Source of the DNA: Kutzneria viridogrisea
GTDB lineage: Bacteria > Actinomycetota > Actinomycetes > Mycobacteriales > Pseudonocardiaceae
DNA: 64,000 bases
Direction of reading: 5' to 3'
NCBI GenBank assembly: GCA_014138725.1
Contig: JACJID010000007.1
Span: 62,001 to 126,000, forward strand
The position numbers and the translations under genes were made by a program. Below the pieces are notes generated by a model. It saw nothing but the letters and a program-made list of their open reading frames with translations, had not been told where the DNA came from and did not search any database. Positions 7,387 to 60,627 of the stretch are shown in pieces. How positions within the stretch are numbered: position 1 is the first letter of the stretch; each line of letters starts with the position of its first letter.

Positions 7387-8553
7387 CTAATAATAGGACT
7401 TTGTCAGGTGCTGTTGAGTTGCGGTGGGGCGGTTGGTGTCCAGGTGGGGACGGGTTGTCGGCAGGTGTGGCGGATACCGGTCCAGGCGGCGAGTAATCGT
7501 TGGAGTTGGCGCAGGACGGCGTAGAGGCTCAAGCCCCGCAGGGGCTTGTGGGGTACGGCGGAGCTTCGTGCAGATGGCCTGGGCAACGGAGGCGAGGGTG
7601 ACGTGGCGGTGCCAGCTGGTCCAGGATCGGCCCGCGAAGTGGTCCAGCCCCAAGCCGTCGTTGAGTTCGCGGTAGTCGTGCTCGATGCGCCAGCGGATCT
7701 TGGCCAGTTGCACCATGTCTGGTAGTCCGATGTCGATCGGCAGGGTGGACAGCCATTGGTCGGTGGGTTCGGGCGTGCCGGTGGGCCACTCGGCCAGCAG
7801 CCAGCATTCGGGCGGACTGCCGTCTGCGGATTTGGGGAGGTGGCGGTCGGCCGGGCGAACCCGCAGGGCCAGGAAGCGGGATCGCATCCGGCCGGTGGGG
7901 TTGCCCGCGCTTGTGTAGGAGCCGTGGCGCCAGACCACGAACCGGCCCGCGGCCATCACGAGGGTCTTCAGTCGGTCGGCGGATCGGGGTAGCGGGGTTC
8001 GGGTCGTCGGCCGATGCCGCCGTAGTCGGGGGTGAACGGTGGCGATCGGGTTCACGGCCACCACTTAGGTCAGGCCGCGTTCGGTCAGCCCCTGACGGAA
8101 ACCGGCGGCGTCGCCGTAGCCGGTGTCGGCCACCGCCGGCCACGCTGGCAGCCCCCACTGCCTGAGTTCGTCAATCATGTCCAGTGCCAGCCGCCACTTC
8201 TCCCGGTGCCGCGCTTGGTCTGGGATCGCGCACCGCCTTCGCTGAGCACGGATCCGTTCGTCCTGCCGTTCGTCGGCGGTCGTGTGGTCGTCCCAGGACT
8301 TGGGCAGGAACAACCGCCAGTCCAGCGCCGCTGACGCCCAGTCGGTCACCGCGTGCACACTCACCCCGACCTGACAGTTACCCCGCTTGCTCAACGCCCC
8401 GCAGTACATCCGCCATGGGCTGCATCGACTTGCGCTTGCCGTCCATCAGCAGCCCACGCAGATACAGCTCCCCTTTGGACCGCTGGTCACGACGGGCGAA
8501 CCGCCGAGTAGGTCCCCGGCGAACTCCTCAATCACTGGGCGAACCAGTGCCAT
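7387..8553 (-). pseudogene. IS701-family transposase, multiply inactivated
   Basis: Remnant of a DDE transposase of IS701 type. From the N-terminus: VRPVIEEFAGDL, a frameshift, then RRDQRSKGELYLRGLLMDGKRKSMQPMA. The next segment recognised is YCGALSKRGNCQVGVSVHA, so roughly 75-80 codons that normally carry the first catalytic Asp (DDTGFPK region) are deleted. VADTGYGDAAGF follows (second Asp). An in-frame TAA at 8065-8067 replaces the Tyr codon of the usual ERGLxYVVAVK motif. The final part has IRWRIEHDYREL (catalytic Glu) and WHRHVTLASVAQA. Clean terminal repeats were not identified. The insertion abuts the 3' end of the neighbouring SnoaL-like gene. Confidence 0.85.
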
Positions 8554-8995
8554 GTAGAGGTGCGGCGTCGCCGAGTCCCTGTGACCAACTGCGCTGATGG
8601 CTGCGTCGGGAAATCCGCCAGCCCTGCGGTGTGCGGACGTACTCGTCGAGGTACCACAGGCCCTGCAGCGCGACCGATGGATCGCCGTCCTCAACTGGCA
8701 GTGCGAGCGAGTTCAGGCACATCACCCGCCCCGTTGCCCGGTCACCGTCGACCCGGATGTCCGGGTTGGCGATCAGATGCTGGATCGCGGGAAGCTGAGC
8801 CAGGCTCCGCGCGATCCATTCCTTGACCTCGGCGCGATTGCCCGCGATACCACCGAACGCCGTGTAGTCGAGGTGGGCATCGTCGGCGATTATCTGGTCC
8901 AGGGCGTCGAAATCTCGACTGTCGACGGCGGTCGCGTACGCCACCAGCAGATCCTGGATCTCCAGCCGGTCCGAAATCTCCTGAATGTTGAGCAT
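8528..8995 (-). CDS. SnoaL-like (NTF2-fold) protein, copy 1
   Basis: 155 residues. MLNIQEISDRLEIQDLLVAYATAVDSRDFDALDQI is the standard opening of SnoaL_4/NTF2-like proteins, a cone-shaped fold that includes polyketide cyclases and dehydratases but also many proteins of unknown role. AGGAGG sits 4 bases before the ATG. It is a close paralogue of the gene at 12501-12950: nearly every segment up to SQGLGD can be matched. After that the C-terminus (AAPLHGTGSPSD) differs and is probably read into the adjoining IS701 debris, so the native end may be lost. The natural substrate cannot be told from sequence. Confidence 0.75.
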   Translation of the reverse strand: MLNIQEISDRLEIQDLLVAYATAVDSRDFDALDQIIADDAHLDYTAFGGIAGNRAEVKEWIARSLAQLPAIQHLIANPDIRVDGDRATGRVMCLNSLALPVEDGDPSVALQGLWYLDEYVRTPQGWRISRRSHQRSWSQGLGDAAPLHGTGSPSD

Positions 8996-12500: not shown

Positions 12501-12950
12501 TCAGCGTGTGTGTTCGGCGAGGTCGCCGAGCCCCTGCGTCCAGCTGCGCTCCTGGCTGCGCCGGGAAATCCGCCAGCCCTCCGGCGTGCGGGTGTACTCG
12601 TCGATGTACCACATGCCCAGCAACGCGATCCGCGGGTCGCCGTCCTTGACCGGAAACACGAGCGTGTTCAGGCACATCACCCGCCCCGTCGCGCGGTCGC
12701 CGTCGAAGCGGATCTCCGGGTTGGCGATCAGGTGCTGGCAAGCGGTGAACTGCGCCATGCTCGACGCAAGGAATTGCTTCATTTCGGCGCGGACACCCGC
12801 GATGCCGCCGAATGTCGTGTAGTCGATGTAGGCGTCGTCGGTGAATATCTGGTCCAGGGCGTCGAAATCCTGGCTGTCGATCGCGGTCGCGTAAGCCACC
12901 AGCAGCTCCTGGATCTCCAGCCGGTCGGAAATTTCCTGAATGTCGAGCAC
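12501..12950 (-). CDS. SnoaL-like (NTF2-fold) protein, copy 2
   Basis: 149 residues from the GTG at 12950, preceded by AGGAGG four bases away, the same arrangement as copy 1. The protein starts with LDIQEISDRLEIQELLVAYATAIDSQDFDALDQIF and ends RSWTQGLGDLAEHTR. It is similar throughout to the protein at 8528-8995 and is the intact member of the pair. Such single-domain NTF2-like proteins act as cyclases, dehydratases or ring-hydroxylation partners, or are uncharacterised; no catalytic assignment is possible here. A longer in-frame extension to 13277 runs through transposase debris and is rejected. Confidence 0.82.
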   Translation of the reverse strand: MLDIQEISDRLEIQELLVAYATAIDSQDFDALDQIFTDDAYIDYTTFGGIAGVRAEMKQFLASSMAQFTACQHLIANPEIRFDGDRATGRVMCLNTLVFPVKDGDPRIALLGMWYIDEYTRTPEGWRISRRSQERSWTQGLGDLAEHTR

Positions 12951-13101
12951 CTGACCTCCTAGGATACTGCAGTGGTTCACGATCACCCTACCCAGCGAAT
13001 ACGTCAGGGCCGTTGTCGCGCGGAGAACGGGCAGAAGGGTGTACCCGTTGGTGCAGCCGTGCCCGCACCGGCCGAACGGCGGGGTTATAACTGAGCCTTT
13101 T

Positions 13102-13265
13102 TCATCCTGCGGCGAGCTCGCGGTCCTGTAGGACGCGGATGGCTTTGGCCAGGTGACAGGCACGGTGCGGGCCGCACCGCAGCTTGCGGAGCACGCGCCA
13201 GGTCTTGAGTTGAGCGTTGGCGCGTTCGACCGGCCCGCGGAGCTGGACATGTGCACGGCTGGCCT
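13102..13265 (-). pseudogene. IS5/DDE-type transposase C-terminal fragment
   Basis: Reads RGPVERANAQLKTWRVLRKLRCGP..ACHLAKAIRVLQDRELAAG then TGA. The ERxNAxLKxWRxL pattern is the conserved catalytic-Glu region of IS5/DDE_Tnp_4 transposases. Everything upstream of about 13265 is missing. The sequence just after the stop (GGCTCAGTTATAAC) may be the element's outer end. Confidence 0.65.
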
Positions 13266-13330
13266 CCTCGGACACACTCGCTAACCATACGAGGCGAAAC
13301 CTTCACACCGCCGGTTCGCTCAGCAGGGTG

Positions 13331-14518: not shown

Positions 14519-14860
14519 ATGGACTTCACGCAATTCGACACCGCCATCGACAAACTCCCCCGACGTCGGGTCGGGTTCTATCCCACTCCGTTCCACGCCT
14601 TGCCCAACCTGTCGGCGGCGTACGGGATCAACCTCTTCATGAAGCGCGAGGACCTGGCCGGCCCCAGCGCGATCAGCGGGAGCAAGACGCGTCTGGCTGA
14701 GTTCATCCTGGGGCGGGCCGTCGAGGAGGGGGTGACGCACCTGATCACCCAGGGCGCGTACCTGACCAACTCGGGTCTACAGTTCGCTGCCGCCTGCCTG
14801 AGCGCGAGGATCACGCCGATCCTGGTCCTGACGCGGAACGTGCCCCGGCACGGTGAGCTA
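14519..14860 (+). pseudogene. ACC deaminase / D-cysteine desulfhydrase family, N-terminal half
   Basis: PLP-dependent fold-type II enzyme. YPTPFHALPNLSAAYGINLFMKREDL is the family opening and SGSKTRLAEFILG contains the PLP Lys (GSKxR). It ends RNVPRHGEL, where the codon CTA (14858-14860) meets the left end of an IS630 element. The remainder of the same reading frame resumes at 19278 with an identical CTA codon. The two halves together give about 358 residues, a normal family length. An upstream TTG at 14504 is an alternative start. The gene is inactive as it stands. Confidence 0.85.
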
Positions 14861-16094
14861 GTGCTGCGTTCCTGAATGTGCGTGGTAATTGGCCCCTGGT
14901 TGTGATCTTCGACCAGGGGCATCGTGCATGGTAGGAGGCGTTAGCCATGCCCAAGCTGCTGCGCGCGCGTCCACCGCGCGACGCCGAGGAAGAACGCGTG
15001 GTTCGCAAGCTTGCCGGGGCGCGGCACGCTCCGGGTGATTGGATGCAGCGGGCCCGGATCGTCGTGTTGAGCTGGGACGGGGTGCGCGGTCCGGAGATCG
15101 CCGCCCGGCTGGGCTGCCACCCAGAGACGGTGCGTCGCCGGCTGCACCGGTTCAATCAGGACGGTGTGGACGGGTTAAGTGATTGGCCTGGGTGCGGCCG
15201 CAAGCGCAGAATCACCGAGGACCAGCGGTCTCGGATCATCGCCTTGGTGAAGATGTTCCCGCCGGGTCGGTTGCTTCCCTGTACGTGGGAGGAGGGGCTG
15301 GTGGCCGCGGATGAGGACGGTCCCCGGCACTGGACGTTGAACACGGTGACCGAGGCCGCCCGTGCTGAGGGGATCGAGGTGGGGCGCAGTCAGGTACGGC
15401 GGATCCTATTGGCGGAGGGCGTGCGGTGGCGACGCACGCGGTCCTGGATCATGAGCACGGATCCTGAGTTCGTCCCAAAAGGACGCGGATCGTCGGTCTC
15501 TACACTGATCCGCCGGAGGGTGCGACGGTAGTCTGCGCCGACGAGTTGGGTCCGGTGATTCCCCGCGCGTACCCTGCCACCCCGGGCTGGTCGCCGGACG
15601 GGCACCGCATCAAGTCCGAACTGGACTATTCCCGTGGCCCGGAGAAGACATGGGTGTACGGCGGGTTACGTGTCCGGGATGGACAGGAAGTCACATGCAC
15701 GGCGTCCTCTCGTAACAGCGCGAACTACCAACGGTTTCTGCGCTTGGTGGAGGAGGCCAACCCCGAGGGGGAGATCGTGATCGTCACCGACAACCTGTCC
15801 AGCCACAACAGCAAGTCCACTCGCGAATGGCTGATCGATCATCCCCGGATCCAGCACGCGTTCATCCCCGTGGCCGCGTGTTGGCTCAACCTCCAAGAGG
15901 GGTGGTGGCGGCTGTTCCGCCGTACTGCCCTTGCCGGGCAGTCCTTCGCCGGCCCCGACGACATCGACCATGCCACCCGAGTGGCAACTGCCCAGCTCAA
16001 CGCCCGTGCCAAGCCCTGGATCTGGGGGCGGCCGCCTCTCCCGCCGAGGACACTGCGACGCCGGTTTATCTACTGCCTATAAGGAACGCAGCAC
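14861..16094 (+). mobile_element. IS630-family insertion sequence, complete
   Basis: 1,234 bp. Terminal inverted repeats GTGCTGCGTTCCT (14861-14873) and AGGAACGCAGCAC (16082-16094) are perfect complements over 13 bases. TA flanks both ends (14859-14860 and 16095-16096), each within CTAG. It encodes one transposase in two overlapping frames. A shortened relative lies at 58720-59377. Confidence 0.9.
14947..16082 (+). CDS. IS630 transposase, two frames joined by a -1 shift
   Basis: The first frame (14947-15531) has an N-terminal helix-turn-helix (VRGPEIAARLGCHPETVRRRLHRF) and runs to PEFVPKGRG. The catalytic part continues in the -1 frame as RTRIVGLYTDPPEGATVVCADELGP (first Asp), then IVIVTDNLSSHNS (second Asp), WLNLQEGWWR (Glu position) and the C-terminus ending RRRFIYCL at 16082. 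The frame changes at CCCAAAAGG (about 15475), a plausible slippery run. The same frame break occurs at the same place in the degenerate copy at 58.9 kb. That favours programmed frameshifting, or inheritance from an already shifted ancestor, over a recent mutation. Confidence 0.8.
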
Positions 16095-16096
16095 TA

Positions 16097-16381
16097 GGCG
16101 TGGGTGAACGCGAGCCCGTCGAGATGGAGCCCGTACCCCTCGGCGTAGGCGAGGCCGAACCGCGCGGCGTAGGCCGCGGCGTTGGCGAAGCAGGCCTTGG
16201 CCGGCCCGAGGTGCCACCCCTGGGGGAGCGGGCTGGGCTCGAACCAGTGGCCGCGGGTGGCCAGGAGGTCTTCCAGGGACCGGTGCCGCCACCCGGCGGT
16301 GCCGAGTGCGTCCTCGCGGTCGTCGCTGATCGCGCGCAGCATCGACACCGCGAACTCCCTCGCGTCGTGCCGTTGCAGTAC
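16097..16381 (-). pseudogene. Fragment of a conserved hypothetical protein
   Basis: Minus-strand frame reading LQRHDAREFAVSMLRAISDDREDALGTAGWRHRSLEDLLATRGHWFEPSPLPQGW...CFANAAAYAARFG, a coherent globular protein resembling a family of actinomycete hypotheticals. The C-terminus ends artificially at the CTAG next to the IS630 right end (stop at 16094-16096). Upstream the coding sense stops at the CTAG of the 17-bp repeat at 16368-16384. Both ends are therefore truncated at IS630-type target sites. Confidence 0.6.
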
Positions 16382-16384
16382 TAG
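16368..16384 (+). repeat. 17-bp repeat, copy 1 (IS630-end-like with CTAG)
   Basis: TGCCGTTGCAGTACTAG, identical to 19265-19281. Its last bases GCAGTACTAG match the right end plus target of the IS630 relative at 59377 (GCAGTACTAG). It may be a solo or surrogate transposon end. Confidence 0.7.
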
Positions 16385-16432
16385 GTGTATTTGGCCAGGA
16401 CGTCACGTGCCGAGCTGATGGCCATCGGCTTG

Positions 16433-17272
16433 TCACTGGCTGGAATGCGCGCTGCGGGCGTCCAGCAGAAACTCGGTCAGTGACGTGGCGTCGGCCGAGC
16501 CCGGGTCTGCCGTGAACACCACCGCCCTCAGGTCGCCGTCGGGAATGTGGACGGTGTCGCAGTCCAGTGCGATCTGCCCCAGATCCTCGTGCCGCAGCAG
16601 CATCCGGCTGTCGTGCTGCCCGGCGGTGGGCGTGCACGTCCAGAGCTCGGCGAACTCGGCGCTGGCGCGCTGGAGGTCGGCGGTCAAAGACGCCAGGTCT
16701 TCGTCCGCGGGGTAGCGGGTCGAGGCCGCATGCAGCTCGGCCACCAACAGGCGCTGGAAGCGCGCGTCGTCACCCGGCGACCGCATCACTTGGCCGCCCT
16801 GGCCAACGAACACCCGCCAGGGAATGTTGCCCTCGCGCGGGTGGAGCGAGGGCACCCCGCAGGCCAGCGCTTCCCAAGCCCGGTTCCAGCCGACGACCGT
16901 CCACGTGGCGTCGAGCACGCACACCGGCGTGCTCGCTATCCGGTCCACGAGCCGGCGCGCGCCATCACTGAGCCGCCGTGGCACCCGCCCTTCCACCGGC
17001 GCGTAACCGGCCAGCGTGCACAGGTGCTCGTACTCGGCCCTGCTCACCCGGAGTGCTCGGGCCAAGGCGTTCAACACACCGGGCGAGGGATGCCTACGCC
17101 CCTGCTCCATGCGTTTCAGGTGGTCCGTCGACACGCCGGCCAATTCGGCGAGCTCCTCCCGGCGCAGGCCGCCCGTGCGCCTGCGGCCGTGACCGACGAC
17201 ACCCACCTGTTCGGGTCGGGTGCGTTCACGTCGCTCCCGCAACACCGTTCCCAAAGTGCTCGCGTCCGACAT
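16433..17272 (-). CDS. XRE-family regulator with MmyB-like ligand-binding domain
   Basis: 279 residues. Helix-turn-helix in the first ~75 residues (LRREELAELAGVSTDHLKRMEQGRRHPSPGVLNALARAL) and an MmyB-like PAS-type domain from about 100 (STPVCVLDATWTVVGWNRAWEAL). This architecture is abundant in actinomycetes and often controls a neighbouring oxidoreductase gene. It is divergent from the double SnoaL/NAD(P)-binding pair, 173 bp away, which it probably regulates (inference from arrangement). Confidence 0.88.
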   Translation of the reverse strand: MSDASTLGTVLRERRERTRPEQVGVVGHGRRRTGGLRREELAELAGVSTDHLKRMEQGRRHPSPGVLNALARALRVSRAEYEHLCTLAGYAPVEGRVPRRLSDGARRLVDRIASTPVCVLDATWTVVGWNRAWEALACGVPSLHPREGNIPWRVFVGQGGQVMRSPGDDARFQRLLVAELHAASTRYPADEDLASLTADLQRASAEFAELWTCTPTAGQHDSRMLLRHEDLGQIALDCDTVHIPDGDLRAVVFTADPGSADATSLTEFLLDARSAHSSQ

Positions 17273-17445
17273 GACCGAAGAATATCAGCGGCATCCGTCA
17301 GGAGGGGACATCCTGGCCCCTGCTACGGCGGCCGAAACCCGGAAGAATGACCACCAGGAAGGCGGAGACAGCGCACGCGAATCTGCGTTGACACGCTTCC
17401 CTCTCTCGATGTTCTACCGATCGTGTTCTCAAAGAAGGAATTTTC

Positions 17446-18336
17446 ATGACTGATGTCAACCACCTCGCCGATCGGGTCGCTGTCGCCGAGACCGTGGCCC
17501 GTTTCGCTTGGTCACAGGACCTCAAGGACTGGGACGGTCTGCGTGCGATCCTCGCCGACACCGTTACGATGGACGTTTCCGAGCACCTGGGCGCGCCGTC
17601 GCAAGAATTGAGTGCCGATGATTTCGTGATCGCCAGCCGGGCGGTGCTGGAAGGGTTCCAGAGTACTCACCATTCGACCTCCAACATCCTCATCGAGCTT
17701 GCGGGCGACAACGCCACCTACCGGAGTTTCGTGGTGGCCTACCACCACGCTCCCGCCGACGAGGTCGACTGGCTCGTCGTGCGTGCTTTCTGGCACGTCG
17801 ACCTGCGGCGGGTCGATAATGAATGGCGACTGAGGCGCATCCGTGTCATACGGAAAGCCCCTTTCACGGGCAACCCTGGGCTTTACACGATCGCCAAGGG
17901 GTCCGCGGACAAGGCGGGCGAGAAAATGAGTGCATCGACCGACGACGTGCGCGCCGTTCCGTTGCGAATGGCCGCGGCGATGTCCGATCGTGACGTCGAA
18001 AAGCTGGTGGCCAACTACACCGACGACTTCGACTGCGTGATGCCGGTGCACCCCGATCGCTCCTTCTGCGGTGCCGACCAGGTTCGCGCGAACTACACGA
18101 CGATCTTCGCCCGGTATTCACACGGCCTGGACGCCAGGGTCATCGACTCCGTGGTGGACGGTGACCGGGTGTGGACGGAGTGGGAGATGATCGGCACGCG
18201 GGCCGACGGGGTCGTCGAGACCATCCGCGGCACAGTCATCATCCGGGTCGAGGACGGCCGCGCCGCAGCGGTCCGCTTCTACCTCGATCCGGTCGATGCC
18301 CCGGACGCATCGGCGCAGCTGAACATCCTCGGCTGA
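17446..18336 (+). CDS. Tandem SnoaL/NTF2-like two-domain protein
   Basis: 296 residues holding two NTF2-like domains: residues ~1-150 (MTDVNHLADRVAVAETVARFAWSQDLKDWDGLRAIL, a SnoaL_4-type start) and ~160-296 (VRAVPLRMAAAMSDRDVEKLVANYTDDFDCVMP, a SnoaL-type start). AAGGA lies upstream of the ATG. Single-domain versions are common; the fusion is less so and would form an internal pseudo-dimer. The function is unknown: family members include cyclases, isomerases and dehydratases. It sits with a NAD(P)-binding protein gene, suggesting a small two-gene pathway or detoxification unit. Confidence 0.82.
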   Translation: MTDVNHLADRVAVAETVARFAWSQDLKDWDGLRAILADTVTMDVSEHLGAPSQELSADDFVIASRAVLEGFQSTHHSTSNILIELAGDNATYRSFVVAYHHAPADEVDWLVVRAFWHVDLRRVDNEWRLRRIRVIRKAPFTGNPGLYTIAKGSADKAGEKMSASTDDVRAVPLRMAAAMSDRDVEKLVANYTDDFDCVMPVHPDRSFCGADQVRANYTTIFARYSHGLDARVIDSVVDGDRVWTEWEMIGTRADGVVETIRGTVIIRVEDGRAAAVRFYLDPVDAPDASAQLNILG

Positions 18337-18521
18337 AATCCGGCTCGGCAGATGACGTCCGATGCTTTGCTGGGCGACTGGGAGTTGCCGCAGTGGGACA
18401 TCCGCACGGTCATGCTGCTGTTCGAGGACTCACGCCTCGACCGGGACCTCGCAGTACTGGCGCGCTGGGTCGCCGGTGGGGAGTGGACATCGTTCGCGTT
18501 GACCCCCAGGAGTAGATTTTC

Positions 18522-19136
18522 ATGCACCTCACCGTTCTCGCCGCGTCCGGCCCGACCGGACTTTGCCTCACCCGGCAGGCACTCGAACGTGGCCACATCG
18601 TCAGGGCCATCGCCCGCAATCCGGACCGGATAACCGTTCCGGACGCCCCGGGGCTGACCAAGATCGTCGCGGACGTGTTCCACACTGACGAGATTGACTC
18701 GGCGCTCGCAGGCAGTGAACTGGTGCTGTCCGGACTGGGCGTGCCCAAGGGGACGAAGCCGGGCGTGCTGACCGCGGGCGCCCGGTCGGCGGTGGCGTCG
18801 GGCGCCCGCGTCATTTGGCTGGGTGCTTACGGCACGGGCCCCTCGGCCGCGGCGGCAAGCGCGCTCAACCGGCTGGTCCTCAAGGGACTCGGAGCGGAGG
18901 TCGCCGACAAGGTCGAGTCTGACGCCGTGGTCACCGAAGCCGGCGGGACGGTTTTCCACGCCGGGCCCCTGTCGAACAAACCGATCAGCCCGGACCGGCG
19001 CACCGTCGGGCTCGATGCCTCCCCCAAGAGCATCTTCCGCATCATGGTGAGCCGGGACACCGTTGCCGCCGCGATGCTTGACGAAGCGGAGAACCCGCGG
19101 TTCCCCGGCCGGATCGCTGTCCCACTCACGCGCTGA
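18522..19136 (+). CDS. NAD(P)-binding oxidoreductase-like protein (atypical SDR/NmrA type)
   Basis: 204 residues. MHLTVLAASGPTGLCLTRQALERGHIVRAIARNP is a Rossmann start with ASGPTG in place of GATGxxG; NAD(P)H-binding family. AAAASALNRLVLKGLGAEVADKVESDAVV and FHAGPLSNKP fit biliverdin-reductase-B-like or NmrA-like proteins. AGGAG precedes the ATG, with the same GATTTTC spacing seen before the SnoaL gene, so both may be co-regulated. The 185 bases between the two genes hold no convincing ORF. Confidence 0.8.
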   Translation: MHLTVLAASGPTGLCLTRQALERGHIVRAIARNPDRITVPDAPGLTKIVADVFHTDEIDSALAGSELVLSGLGVPKGTKPGVLTAGARSAVASGARVIWLGAYGTGPSAAAASALNRLVLKGLGAEVADKVESDAVVTEAGGTVFHAGPLSNKPISPDRRTVGLDASPKSIFRIMVSRDTVAAAMLDEAENPRFPGRIAVPLTR

Positions 19137-19264
19137 CCTGAAGGCCCATGGGCGGCTCGCCTGCGGGTCGCTCATGCCGCACGCGGGATTCGGAGACCCA
19201 AGGTGGCGGCCGATCACCCGGGGAAGCTGTCCCCGTCGGCGACGAGGTCACCCCCTCATCCAAC

Positions 19265-19281
19265 TGCCGTTGCAGTACTAG
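19265..19281 (+). repeat. 17-bp repeat, copy 2 (right boundary of the 4.4-kb insertion)
   Basis: TGCCGTTGCAGTACTAG, identical to 16368-16384. The TA at 19279-19280 is the duplicated target dinucleotide at the right junction with the interrupted PLP enzyme gene. Confidence 0.75.
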
Positions 19282-20015
19282 CCGAGTTCCGCGGCAACTA
19301 CCTGCTCAACAAGACGATGGGTGTGGAGACCCACGTCATCAACGTCAGCGGCAACGTCTGGACGGTCCCAGAAGCGGCCGCGCGGATCACCGACGCCATC
19401 ACCGGCCGCAGGGCCGAACTTGAGGCGCAGGGGCACAAGGTCCTCGTCGTCGGAACCGGTGGTGCGCACCCCGACGGTTTCATCGCGCACGCCCTGACGT
19501 TCCGGGAGATGCTGGAGCAGTCCGGTTCCGCGGGAGTCGACCTCGACTTCGTCTACCACACGATCGGCACCGGGACCGCGCTACCGGGGATGCTGGCCGC
19601 CAAGCTGAGTCTGGGTCACCCGGTGAAGTTCCGGTCGATCTCGATCCAGCAGTGCAACGACGGAGACTGGATGAACCCCGGCGTGATCGTGGAGCGGACC
19701 AAGGCCGTTCTGGCCACGTTGGGCGCTCCCGTGCCCGACGACGCGACTATCCGCGCCGAGATCGACATCGACCAACGCTTCATCGGCGAGGACTACGCCG
19801 TCGCGTCCCCCGAGAGCTCGGCCGCCATCCGCGAGCTGGCCAGGGCAGAGGGCATCCTCGTCGGCCCCGTCTACACCGGCAAGGGACTCGCGGGATTGCT
19901 CGACCACGCCCGCAGCGGACGGATCCCCGTCGACAGCAACGTCGCGTTCCTGCACACAGGAGACACCGGCAACCTGTTCGAGATCCCCGAAGTCGTCGGC
20001 CACATCACCGACTGA
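19278..20015 (+). pseudogene. ACC deaminase / D-cysteine desulfhydrase family, C-terminal half
   Basis: Continues the frame cut at 14860: CTA then AEFRGNYLLNKTMGVETHVINVSG, the family region following RNxPRHG. KVLVVGTGGAHPDG, YHTIGTGTALPGMLAAKL and GPVYTGKGLAGLLDHARSGRIP (substrate and PLP-phosphate contacts) and the end FLHTGDTGNLFEIPEV are all present, so the half is intact. A frame opening upstream at a GTG (19203) comes from the insertion and is not a native start. A translated C-terminal half would lack the PLP Lys. Confidence 0.85.
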
Positions 20016-57520: not shown

Positions 57521-58720
57521 ATGCGCAGCTACCGCTCCCTGTTCCGCACCCCGGAGTTCACCCCGTTCCTGCTCTCCTTCGCCGCTTCTGCCGCAGCCCA
57601 GACGATCAGCGGCCTGGCCCTCGGCACGCTGGTCTTCCGGGCCACCGGCTCCCCCCTCCTGTCGGCGGTGAGCATGTTCGGCCCGCAGCTGGCACAGTTG
57701 ATGGGGGCCACGTTCCTGCTCTCGGGCGCCGACCGTCTGCCCCCGCGCGCGATCCTGTCCGGCCTCGCCCTCGCCTTCGCGGCCGGTACGGCGGTGCTGG
57801 CGCTGCCCGGTCTGCCGGTCTGGGCGGTTTTCGCCGTCCTACTCTTCCAGGGCCTGGTCGCGTCGCTGGGCAGCGGAGTGCGTGGGGGCCTGCTGAACGA
57901 GATCCTGTCCAAGGATGGCTACGTCCTTGGCCGTTCGGTGTACAACATGCTCTGGGGCCTGACGCAGATGGCCGGTTTCGCGACGGGCGGCGCACTGTTG
58001 GCTCTCCTGTCCCCACAGACCTGCCTGCTCCTCGCGGCGGCGCTGTACGTGCTGGCGGCCCTGGGCACCCGCCTGGGCCTCACGGCCCGCCCACCGCGCT
58101 CCGCCGGCCGCCCGTCCGTGTCGGCGACCTGGCGTACCAACGCCTTCCTGTGGTCCTCACGCCCCCGCCGTCTGACGTACCTGGGCCTGTGGGTCCCCAA
58201 CGGCCTGATCGTCGGCAGCGATTCGCTCTACGTCTCCTACGCGCCTCACGCCGCCGGCATGCTGTACGCGTTCGGGGCGCTGGGCATGTTCGTGGGCGAC
58301 ATGGCGGTGGGCCGCCTGGTACCGCCCGCGGTGCGCCCCCGTCTCGCGACCCCGCTGCGTCTGCTGCTGGCGGTTCCCTACCTGTTCTTCGTCCTGCGGC
58401 CGGGAGTGGAGCTGTCGGCAGTGGCCGTCACCGTGGCCTCCGTCGGCTTCGCCGCGACCCTGGTCCTCCAGGAACGCCTGATGTCCCTCACCCCCGACGA
58501 CCTCGCGGGCCAAGCACTCGGCCTGCACGCCACCGGCATGACCGCCCTGCAGGGCGTCGGCGCTGCCCTCGCGGGCACGCTGGCCCAACTGGCCTCTCCG
58601 GCCACGGCGATGACGCTGATGGCGGCCGGATCCGTCACCGTGACCCTGATCCTCGCGGCGCTGGGCAGGCACGAGGAACGACAGTCGGCCATCCAGTCGG
58701 AACCCGCCGCCACGGACTAG
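57521..58720 (+). CDS. Major facilitator superfamily transporter
   Basis: 399 residues with about ten to twelve hydrophobic segments, e.g. FLLSFAASAAAQTISGLALGTLVF, AVFAVLLFQGLVASLGSGVRGG, CLLLAAALYVLAALGTRLGL, LLLAVPYLFFVL and TAMTLMAAGSVTVTLILAALG. Layout fits the MFS_1 drug-efflux-like group; substrate unknown. The TAG stop (58718-58720) uses the TA target and first base of the adjoining IS630 relative; without the insertion the stop would still be CTAG. It converges with the TetX-like gene. Confidence 0.85.
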   Translation: MRSYRSLFRTPEFTPFLLSFAASAAAQTISGLALGTLVFRATGSPLLSAVSMFGPQLAQLMGATFLLSGADRLPPRAILSGLALAFAAGTAVLALPGLPVWAVFAVLLFQGLVASLGSGVRGGLLNEILSKDGYVLGRSVYNMLWGLTQMAGFATGGALLALLSPQTCLLLAAALYVLAALGTRLGLTARPPRSAGRPSVSATWRTNAFLWSSRPRRLTYLGLWVPNGLIVGSDSLYVSYAPHAAGMLYAFGALGMFVGDMAVGRLVPPAVRPRLATPLRLLLAVPYLFFVLRPGVELSAVAVTVASVGFAATLVLQERLMSLTPDDLAGQALGLHATGMTALQGVGAALAGTLAQLASPATAMTLMAAGSVTVTLILAALGRHEERQSAIQSEPAATD

Positions 58721-59377
58721 CACTGCGTTCCTGAATGCGGGTGGCGATTGGCCCCTGATCGCGATCCGCCAGGCCGGCTGGGGCCCCGTTGATGGGAGGA
58801 GGGCCTGGTCGCGGCCGATGAGACCGGACCGGCGTACTGGACACTGGACGCACTGACCGAAGCCGCCCGCGCGGAGGGAATCGAGATCGGCCGTAGCCAG
58901 GTGCGGCGGATCCTGCTGGCCGAGGGAGTGCGCTGGAGACGCACGCGCTCCTGGACCATCAGCAGGGATCCCGAGTTCGCCCCACAAGAACACGGATCGT
59001 CAGTCTCTACACGGATCCGACGCCCGACACCACGGTAGTCTGCGCCGACGAGCTGGGCCCAGTCATCCCCCGAGCGTTGCCTGCGGAACAGCGTTAACTA
59101 CCAACGGTTTCTGCAACTGGTAGAAGACGCCAATCCCGAGGGTGAGGTCGTGATCGTCACCGACAACCTGTCCAGTCACAACAGCAAGTCCGCCCGCGAA
59201 TGGCTGGTCGATCATCCCCGGATCCAGCACGCGTTCATCCCGGTCGCCGCGTGCTGGCTGAACCTTCAGCAGGGGCGGTGGCGACTGTTCCGCCGTACCG
59301 CTATTTGGGGGCGTCCGCATCCGCAGCCCCGGAAGCTGCGACGCAGGTTTGTCTACCGCCTTTGAGGAACGCAGTAC
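58720..59377 (+). mobile_element. Internally deleted IS630-family copy
   Basis: 658 bp. Ends GCACTGCGTTCCT (58720-58732) and AGGAACGCAGTAC (59365-59377), flanked by TA within CTAG on both sides. The transposase lacks the N-terminal helix-turn-helix, a central block and ~30 residues near the C-terminus. What remains (EEGLVAADETGPAYWTL, GRSQVRRILLAEGVRWRRTRSW, VVIVTDNLSSHNSKSAREWL, RRRFVYRL) is clearly related to the element at 14861-16094. Non-autonomous; could be mobilised by the intact copy (inference). Confidence 0.88.
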
Positions 59378-60627
59378 TAGGCCTTGAGGGTGTGGGAGTA
59401 GTTCGGAAGCTGCCAGTCGCCGCCACGGTCTTCTTTTGCGAACCGTGCTGCCAGTTCGGGAAGCCGCAGGAACGTGGCTACCGCGCCCATGGCGCGGATG
59501 ATGTTGATCCCCAGCTTGCCTTGCGGGAAACCGAAGCGCAGCAATTTCGGGTTGACCTCGCCCTGAACGTGATCGACGAACGGTTGCAGCGTCGCGTGAT
59601 ACTGCGCGAACGCGGCCGGGATGTCACCCGGGTGCCGGTTGATCTCCCCGGCCAGGACGTAGGCGCCGACCAGGGCGGCGGAGGTGCCCATGCCGCTGTA
59701 GGGGGAGCCGCAGTATCCGGCGTCACCGACGAGCGCGACCCGGCCTTGTGACCAGGTCTCGGTCCGGACCTGGACGACCTCCTGGGAGTAGAAGAACTCG
59801 GTCTCCCACATGCCGGCGAGGAACCGCTGGGTCTGCCAGCCGGCGTCGCGGAACCGGTCAGTCCAGAACTGCTTCTGCTGCTCGACCGGTTGCCGGTGCA
59901 CCGCGGTCGCTTCCTCGGAGTTCTCCCACAGCGCGAAGTAGACCTGGGTCTGGGTGGGGTTGTGGCTGCGGCGCATGATCATGCGTCCGCCGGGAGCGTT
60001 GTAGGTCTCGCGAATACTGTCATCGGTCGCGTCGCGTGGAATGAACCAGTACGCCATGTGGATGCCGACCGGCCAGTACGGGGTGGGGGCGTCGGCCGCG
60101 AGGATGTCCCGGCGGATGCGCGAGCCCTGCCCATCGGCGCCGATCAGTATGTCGAACTCCCCCGACGTGCCATCGGAGAAGTGCGCGCGGACACGGTCGC
60201 TGTCCTGCTGGAAGCTCTCGACACCCATCCCGAACACGAAGCGCACGTCATCTTTGGTTGCCCCGTGCAGGACGCGCACCAGGTCTCCGCGCATGATCTC
60301 GTACTCCGAGGTCATGGTCTGGCCGCCCTTGCCGGAAGTGTTGGCCAGCACGGTGCCCCACCGGCGGCCCCGTCCGTCCACGAACGCCACACCCGGCTCG
60401 TCGACGCGGATGCCACGCACCGTGTCGAGCAGTCCCATCCGATCGATCGCCTCGATGCCCTGTCCGCGCAGGTCGATCTGCGCGCCCGTGGCCCGCAGCA
60501 CCGGGTGGCGTTCGACGACTGTGACCTGGTGACCACCTCGCACCAGCCAGTAGGCGAGCGCTTGACCGGCGATGCCACCCCCACACACGAGAACCTTCAG
60601 TGCTTTCGCGCCTGTCGTGACTGCCAT
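59377..60627 (-). CDS. TetX-like FAD-dependent monooxygenase
   Basis: 416 residues. LKVLVCGGGIAGQALAYWLVRGGHQVTVVERH (FAD loop), DLRGQGIEAIDRMGLLDTV, ILIGADGQGSRIRRDI (DG motif) and RVALVGDAGYCGSPYSGMGTSAALVGAYVLAGEI (GD motif). Class A monooxygenase of the UbiH/TetX group. Divergent from a close TetR homologue across two tetO-like operators, so tetracycline-type compounds are plausible inducers and substrates; TetX itself hydroxylates tetracycline at C11a. Enzyme specificity is inferred from context. AAGGGAG and GGAG lie upstream of the ATG. The stop is in the CTAG shared with the IS630 relative. Confidence 0.82.
   Translation of the reverse strand: MAVTTGAKALKVLVCGGGIAGQALAYWLVRGGHQVTVVERHPVLRATGAQIDLRGQGIEAIDRMGLLDTVRGIRVDEPGVAFVDGRGRRWGTVLANTSGKGGQTMTSEYEIMRGDLVRVLHGATKDDVRFVFGMGVESFQQDSDRVRAHFSDGTSGEFDILIGADGQGSRIRRDILAADAPTPYWPVGIHMAYWFIPRDATDDSIRETYNAPGGRMIMRRSHNPTQTQVYFALWENSEEATAVHRQPVEQQKQFWTDRFRDAGWQTQRFLAGMWETEFFYSQEVVQVRTETWSQGRVALVGDAGYCGSPYSGMGTSAALVGAYVLAGEINRHPGDIPAAFAQYHATLQPFVDHVQGEVNPKLLRFGFPQGKLGINIIRAMGAVATFLRLPELAARFAKEDRGGDWQLPNYSHTLKA

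Follow-up and report, generated by a model that had tools for sequence, protein, structure and literature searches.

How does a piece of foreign DNA come to lie in the middle of an enzyme gene when its two borders belong to different kinds of insertion sequence? The question is raised by a locus of Kutzneria viridogrisea at positions 14519–20015 of the 64,000-nucleotide stretch analyzed here (the window, which falls within contig 7 of the 10.25-Mb host genome), where 4.4 kb of foreign DNA, the insert, separate the two halves of a gene for a PLP-dependent enzyme (Table 1). The halves match consecutive parts of the 295-position PALP profile, and each aligns, without overlap, to an intact ortholog on the linear Streptomyces plasmid NZ_CP109170. 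Together they amount to 1077 nt, exactly the length of that ortholog, which bears out the first-pass annotation in its view of a cleanly split gene whose halves rejoin to normal length. The annotation had also proposed a search for an empty site. The plasmid copy provides an uninterrupted gene and fixes position and frame, but it reads CTCG where the host has CTAG, so that the empty site does not give the original four bases.

Judged from its sequence, the ortholog falls in the D-cysteine desulfhydrase/ACC deaminase/D-cysteate sulfo-lyase group, where it scores below every curated cut-off (eight models in the list). At E 1e-60 or better, the 3' half was found in 3 of 249 family genomes, namely the host and two others at 74–75%, both of which lie outside the host's genus. 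The gene is about 89% identical to the copy on the Streptomyces linear plasmid, and a LysR gene adjoins it in both places. Given this plasmid match and the absence of the gene at that level from the sampled relatives, the interrupted gene looks horizontally acquired.

Table 1. Features of the interrupted gene and its insert, in window coordinates (dot, no strand).
Feature	Coordinates	Strand	Basis
5' half of PLP-dependent deaminase/desulfhydrase-like gene	14519..14857	+	PALP 5-90/295; alignment to intact ortholog
Left CTAG, TA read as IS630 target duplication	14858..14861	.	
IS630-family element A, perfect 16-bp inverted repeats, CTAG at both edges, split transposase ORF	14858..16097	+	
Gene X remnant, 3' side cut by the IS630 junction, 17-bp IS701 end near putative start	16098..16425	-	homologs; start region putative
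First IS701-type terminal repeat copy, within broken gene X	16368..16384	+	
XRE regulator with MmyB-like ligand-binding domain	16433..17272	-	Pfam
Double SnoaL-like protein	17446..18336	+	Pfam
NAD(P)H-binding protein	18522..19136	+	Pfam
Second IS701-type terminal repeat copy, right border of insert, ends in right CTAG	19265..19281	+	
3' half of PLP-enzyme gene	19278..20015	+	PALP 97-295/295; alignment to intact ortholog

On its left, the insert begins with a member of the IS630 family, element A. The perfect IS630 end noted earlier at the start of the insert is one of the two termini of this complete, 1240-bp element, whose ends are complementary at 16 of 16 positions and flanked by TA inside CTAG. 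Its transposase is encoded in two ORFs (14947–15531 and 15546–16082), the second of which passes the Pfam DDE_3 cut-off (60.2 vs 28.6). Against the IS630 model the ORFs score 77.8 and 93.8 bits; with the frame split, neither alone attains the cut-off of 100, which is set for the whole protein. The second ORF is read in the -1 frame following the word CCCAAAA, a possible site of programmed frameshifting, with damage as the alternative; an 82% relative of element A elsewhere in the host genome is without CCCAAAA. This relative is the sole other match in the host genome at a limit of E 1e-200, and no second identical copy, as would serve recombination between copies, was found there at that limit. 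In its DDE_3 transposase, its perfect terminal repeats and its TA target within CTAG, element A resembles other IS630/Tc1-mariner elements; a preference of IS630 for TA within CTAG is named in the title of a paper listed among the references of PMC2170065. Element A differs from them in that, on the reading preferred here, it did not drive the insert, in which it sits complete as a guest. Elsewhere, the window holds a CTAG-bounded, internally deleted-looking 664-bp relative of element A (58717–59380), the ends of which differ by one and two bases, and a broken IS701-type transposase of another lineage (about 7387–8500).

The right border is of a different type, as the first-pass annotation had recognized, and it ends in the 17-mer TGCCGTTGCAGTACTAG. 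This 17-mer matches the window twice at up to three mismatches, against a chance expectation of 0.03, which led us to reject a chance match for the copy at 16368–16384, a copy that the annotation had missed. In the host genome it occurs in 12 places at up to two mismatches, with fewer than two mismatches at the two window copies only. Of 297 family genomes, 35, counting the host, contain its 15-base core, which forms 11 inverted pairs that span 1,356–1,452 bp in 10 genomes (counted from the listed places); one further inverted pair, in genome G089, spans 3,720 bp. In a genome of the host's genus (G003, locus L087), a core pair brackets a 380-amino-acid protein that carries DDE_5 (Pfam) and scores 467 bits against the NCBI IS701 model (cut-off 150); tblastn also placed this transposase inside the core pairs of L116 and L123. 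These pairs, with an IS701 transposase within them where checked, identify the right border of the insert as an IS701 terminal repeat.

How much of an IS701 element is left there bears on how the insert arose. By eye, a stretch of about 33 bp that starts near 19249 looks like IS701 tips, for instance that of L070, and the best automatic match scored 28 over 45 bp. Donor DNA in common with A. xylanica reaches 19212, which leaves no more than 69 bp for IS701. So short a remnant speaks for a piecemeal assembly, in which the gene would first have received a plain IS701 element, and the DNA of gene X and the passenger genes would have come to lie between that element's right tip and IS630 through subsequent deletions and illegitimate recombination; IS remnants elsewhere in the window point the same way. 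Several independent joins would be needed for this, however, and traces of an IS701 interior were not recognized, and we regard such a course of events as unlikely.

The annotation had attributed movement of the passengers to IS630, acting through its own left end with a surrogate on the right. It had noted only the last seven bases as common to the right terminus and IS630 ends; in fact 9 of the 10 outermost bases agree, with one mismatch at the sixth position from the end. It is because of this agreement that the proposal retains any weight, and a TA duplication would here be indistinguishable from a duplication of CTAG. Yet the right repeat has its own cognate family in IS701, and element A retains an intact right end of its own; since IS630 thus owns both its ends, a surrogate is unnecessary. 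Two further results given below also stand against the proposal, namely that TA is not expected in gene X at the junction and that five genomes hold the passenger genes without IS630 ends. We consider it very improbable and the least supported of the readings.

The four bases CTAG tie the two insertion sequences together. The left copy recurs at 19278–19281, the right junction of the insert, and every one of the four CTAGs between 14858 and 19281 is a junction, in a window where the word is scarce (26 found vs 73.5 expected). CTAG at both borders would fit a 4-bp duplication by IS701, but the left copy doubles as the IS630 target, and CTCG stands in the ortholog. A passage of PMC2266710 states that almost all of the 27 IS701 elements considered there duplicate exactly 4 bp, and the tip consensus in a table of that paper fits with a tip at TAG, so that the line between element and duplication within CTAG is not fixed by the consensus as tabulated. 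Against an IS701 insertion at CTAG, a passage of PMC8024623 describes 4–9-bp duplications and a target without consensus for two Geobacillus IS701 elements. Elsewhere, 4 of 21 retrieved loci, belonging to three genomes, have IS701-type ends that meet over a single CTAG; abutting IS ends on one CTAG were not enriched in the family (5 of 249 genomes), and a reversed-pattern control matched many more.

The passenger genes seem to have a history of their own. Pfam agrees with the annotation on the XRE regulator, the double SnoaL-like protein and the NAD(P)-binding protein, and the three-gene module was found in five genomes besides the host (G089, G090, A. azurea, A. xylanica and Nocardia colli), where its nucleotide identity is 91–96%. 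The A. azurea locus is matched without a difference over 8001 bp by genome G110 of the sampled family, and Amycolatopsis azurea belongs to the Pseudonocardiaceae. In the regions retrieved, those of G089, G090 and A. xylanica have the module alone in common. One flank is common to A. azurea and G089; N. colli has an SDR-gene stretch in common with both of them (about 80%), and with A. azurea also one of 640 bp (87%). With flanks partly in common, the five contexts are only partly independent. None of the five loci contains GCAGYACTAG or, at up to three mismatches, the IS630 end, and the 17-mer gave one match each in three of them at up to four mismatches. For the four loci other than that of G089, eight proteins were searched against Pfam; four matched non-transposase families, and the other four gave no match. 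As it occurs elsewhere without these IS ends, the module seems mobile on its own, and the insert would be one of several routes by which it has traveled. Two mutually similar SnoaL-like proteins (by eye) are also encoded near the insert, at 8528–8995 and 12501–13277.

Between element A and the module lies the remnant of gene X, which carries information on the left junction. Outside the host, homologs gave nine matches, spread over 8 of 200 family genomes, and His-Ala-Trp is present in all seven homolog ORFs examined (of the other two matches, one gave no alignment and one was left out), exactly where the IS630 junction cuts X. The sole Trp codon is without TA, which makes a simple TA insertion of IS630 into X improbable, provided that host X once had the conserved Trp. 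A ready-made unit of IS630 and X would itself require a prior deletion. At E 1e-12 or better, close relatives showing the base after the broken His-Ala codon were not found among 394 class genomes besides the host, and a single weak plasmid match was obtained (E 6e-3). The first copy of the IS701-type repeat puts the two sides of gene X out of frame. X and the XRE gene are neighbors on one strand, and we infer that 16098–19212 is one continuous donor piece with a small IS701 scar inside it.

Taken together, we put at somewhat better than even, roughly 0.55, the chance that an IS701-ended segment inserted at a CTAG of the PLP gene, that IS630 later entered the left copy of this CTAG, and that the segment lost its original left end. 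A segment with an IS701 terminal repeat on its right would have carried gene X and the module, and an IS701-type transposase would have put it into the CTAG, presumably duplicating these four bases. An IS630-family element would next have inserted at the TA of the left copy, and the left end of the segment would have been lost along with part of gene X, leaving CTAG beside the middle of X. As the insert holds no IS701 transposase, the acting enzyme can only be inferred; the host genome matches PF13546 in nine places, all outside the insert, which counts against this order of events. So does the left border, for which no inverted copy of the 17-mer was found in the window at up to three mismatches. 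That the loss began exactly at CTAG must likewise be counted against it, as an unforced coincidence. The genomes searched yielded no intermediate states of the insert.

Both the deletion and the coincidence at CTAG are dispensed with if the right repeat alone was used: a single-ended IS701 insertion would have taken an arbitrary left terminus in X and duplicated CTAG, and IS630 would then have entered the left CTAG. This requires the fewest events, and it agrees with a segment that has CTAG on both sides and an IS701 end on the right only, as well as with a left terminus inside a coding sequence that continues in the homologs. Parallels are few, however. To our knowledge, IS701 offers no precedent, although the literature was not searched for single-ended insertion by name. 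Of the 21 loci examined, eight were without a transposase match, comprising two short paired elements and six loci with a lone exact end (L105, L106, L109, L113, L117 and L122; L106 has a partner with four mismatches 7.2 kb away), and lone ends may simply be decayed elements. We rejected these loci as parallel single-ended units, as a flanking ORF is cut at the end in only one of the six (L117); the cut ORF matched no Pfam family, and the other half of its gene was not recognized. The Pfam scan of the lone-end loci covered nine proteins from five of them, leaving out L109. Single-ended insertion at this locus thus appears quite unlikely, more so than piecemeal assembly. More doubtful again is its general form, in which IS701-type transposases could insert single-ended DNA with the other terminus at will, duplicating CTAG and carrying neighboring genes; IS630 and IS701 would then build on each other, because each insertion would make a fresh CTAG where CTAG is rare.

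Known kinds of mobile unit match the insert in part. Like members of the IS701 family, it ends on the right in an IS701 terminal repeat and has CTAG flanks that would fit a 4-bp duplication; unlike a family member, it has passenger genes in place of a transposase and a left end. Mobile insertion cassettes and transporter-IS carry passenger genes with IS ends. The insert likewise borders its passengers with an IS-type end and has no cognate transposase inside, but it has only the right IS701 end, the left being absent. For movement in trans by a cognate transposase, the host offers other IS701-type transposase matches, but a pair of these ends was not found in its genome at up to two mismatches. 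IS630-associated composite transposons with a preference for CTAG have reportedly been described (Tenzen and Ohtsubo in 1991, by its title). The insert resembles such transposons in having IS DNA at both passenger borders and a CTAG target. It differs in that its borders come from two unrelated families, the right one only a tip: where a composite transposon has two copies of one IS, the insert has IS630 on the left and an IS701 tip on the right. Literature joining IS701, composite transposons and Streptomyces was not found.

A closer parallel comes from genome G089, where a 3.7-kb unit (L086:999–4718) has exact IS701 ends at both borders and an ABC-transporter ATPase gene between them, together with permease and TetR genes (by eye) and a weak transposase match (36% over 55 residues). 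At one of its borders, two inverted ends are fused into 39 bp, and a similar 39-bp fusion occurs at L124:1875–1913. This unit is consistent with the existence of IS701-ended passenger units in the family. Other loci show further arrangements of such ends. L107:5187–7990, possibly a hybrid-ended unit, is bounded by two unlike ends of IS701 type that enclose a transposase remnant and an ORF, and L108:2032–2195 and L121:1932–2280 are short, with near-perfect inverted IS701 ends and no transposase match, like miniature elements.

The locus is mostly ordinary genome traffic, and what is unusual is the one-sided border. It offers a concrete place to test single-ended IS701 insertion. The module it contains is a small gene set that occurs at 91–96% identity in both Amycolatopsis and Nocardia, and the locus as a whole illustrates how unrelated IS families with a common, rare target word can stack and move gene modules in high-GC actinobacteria.
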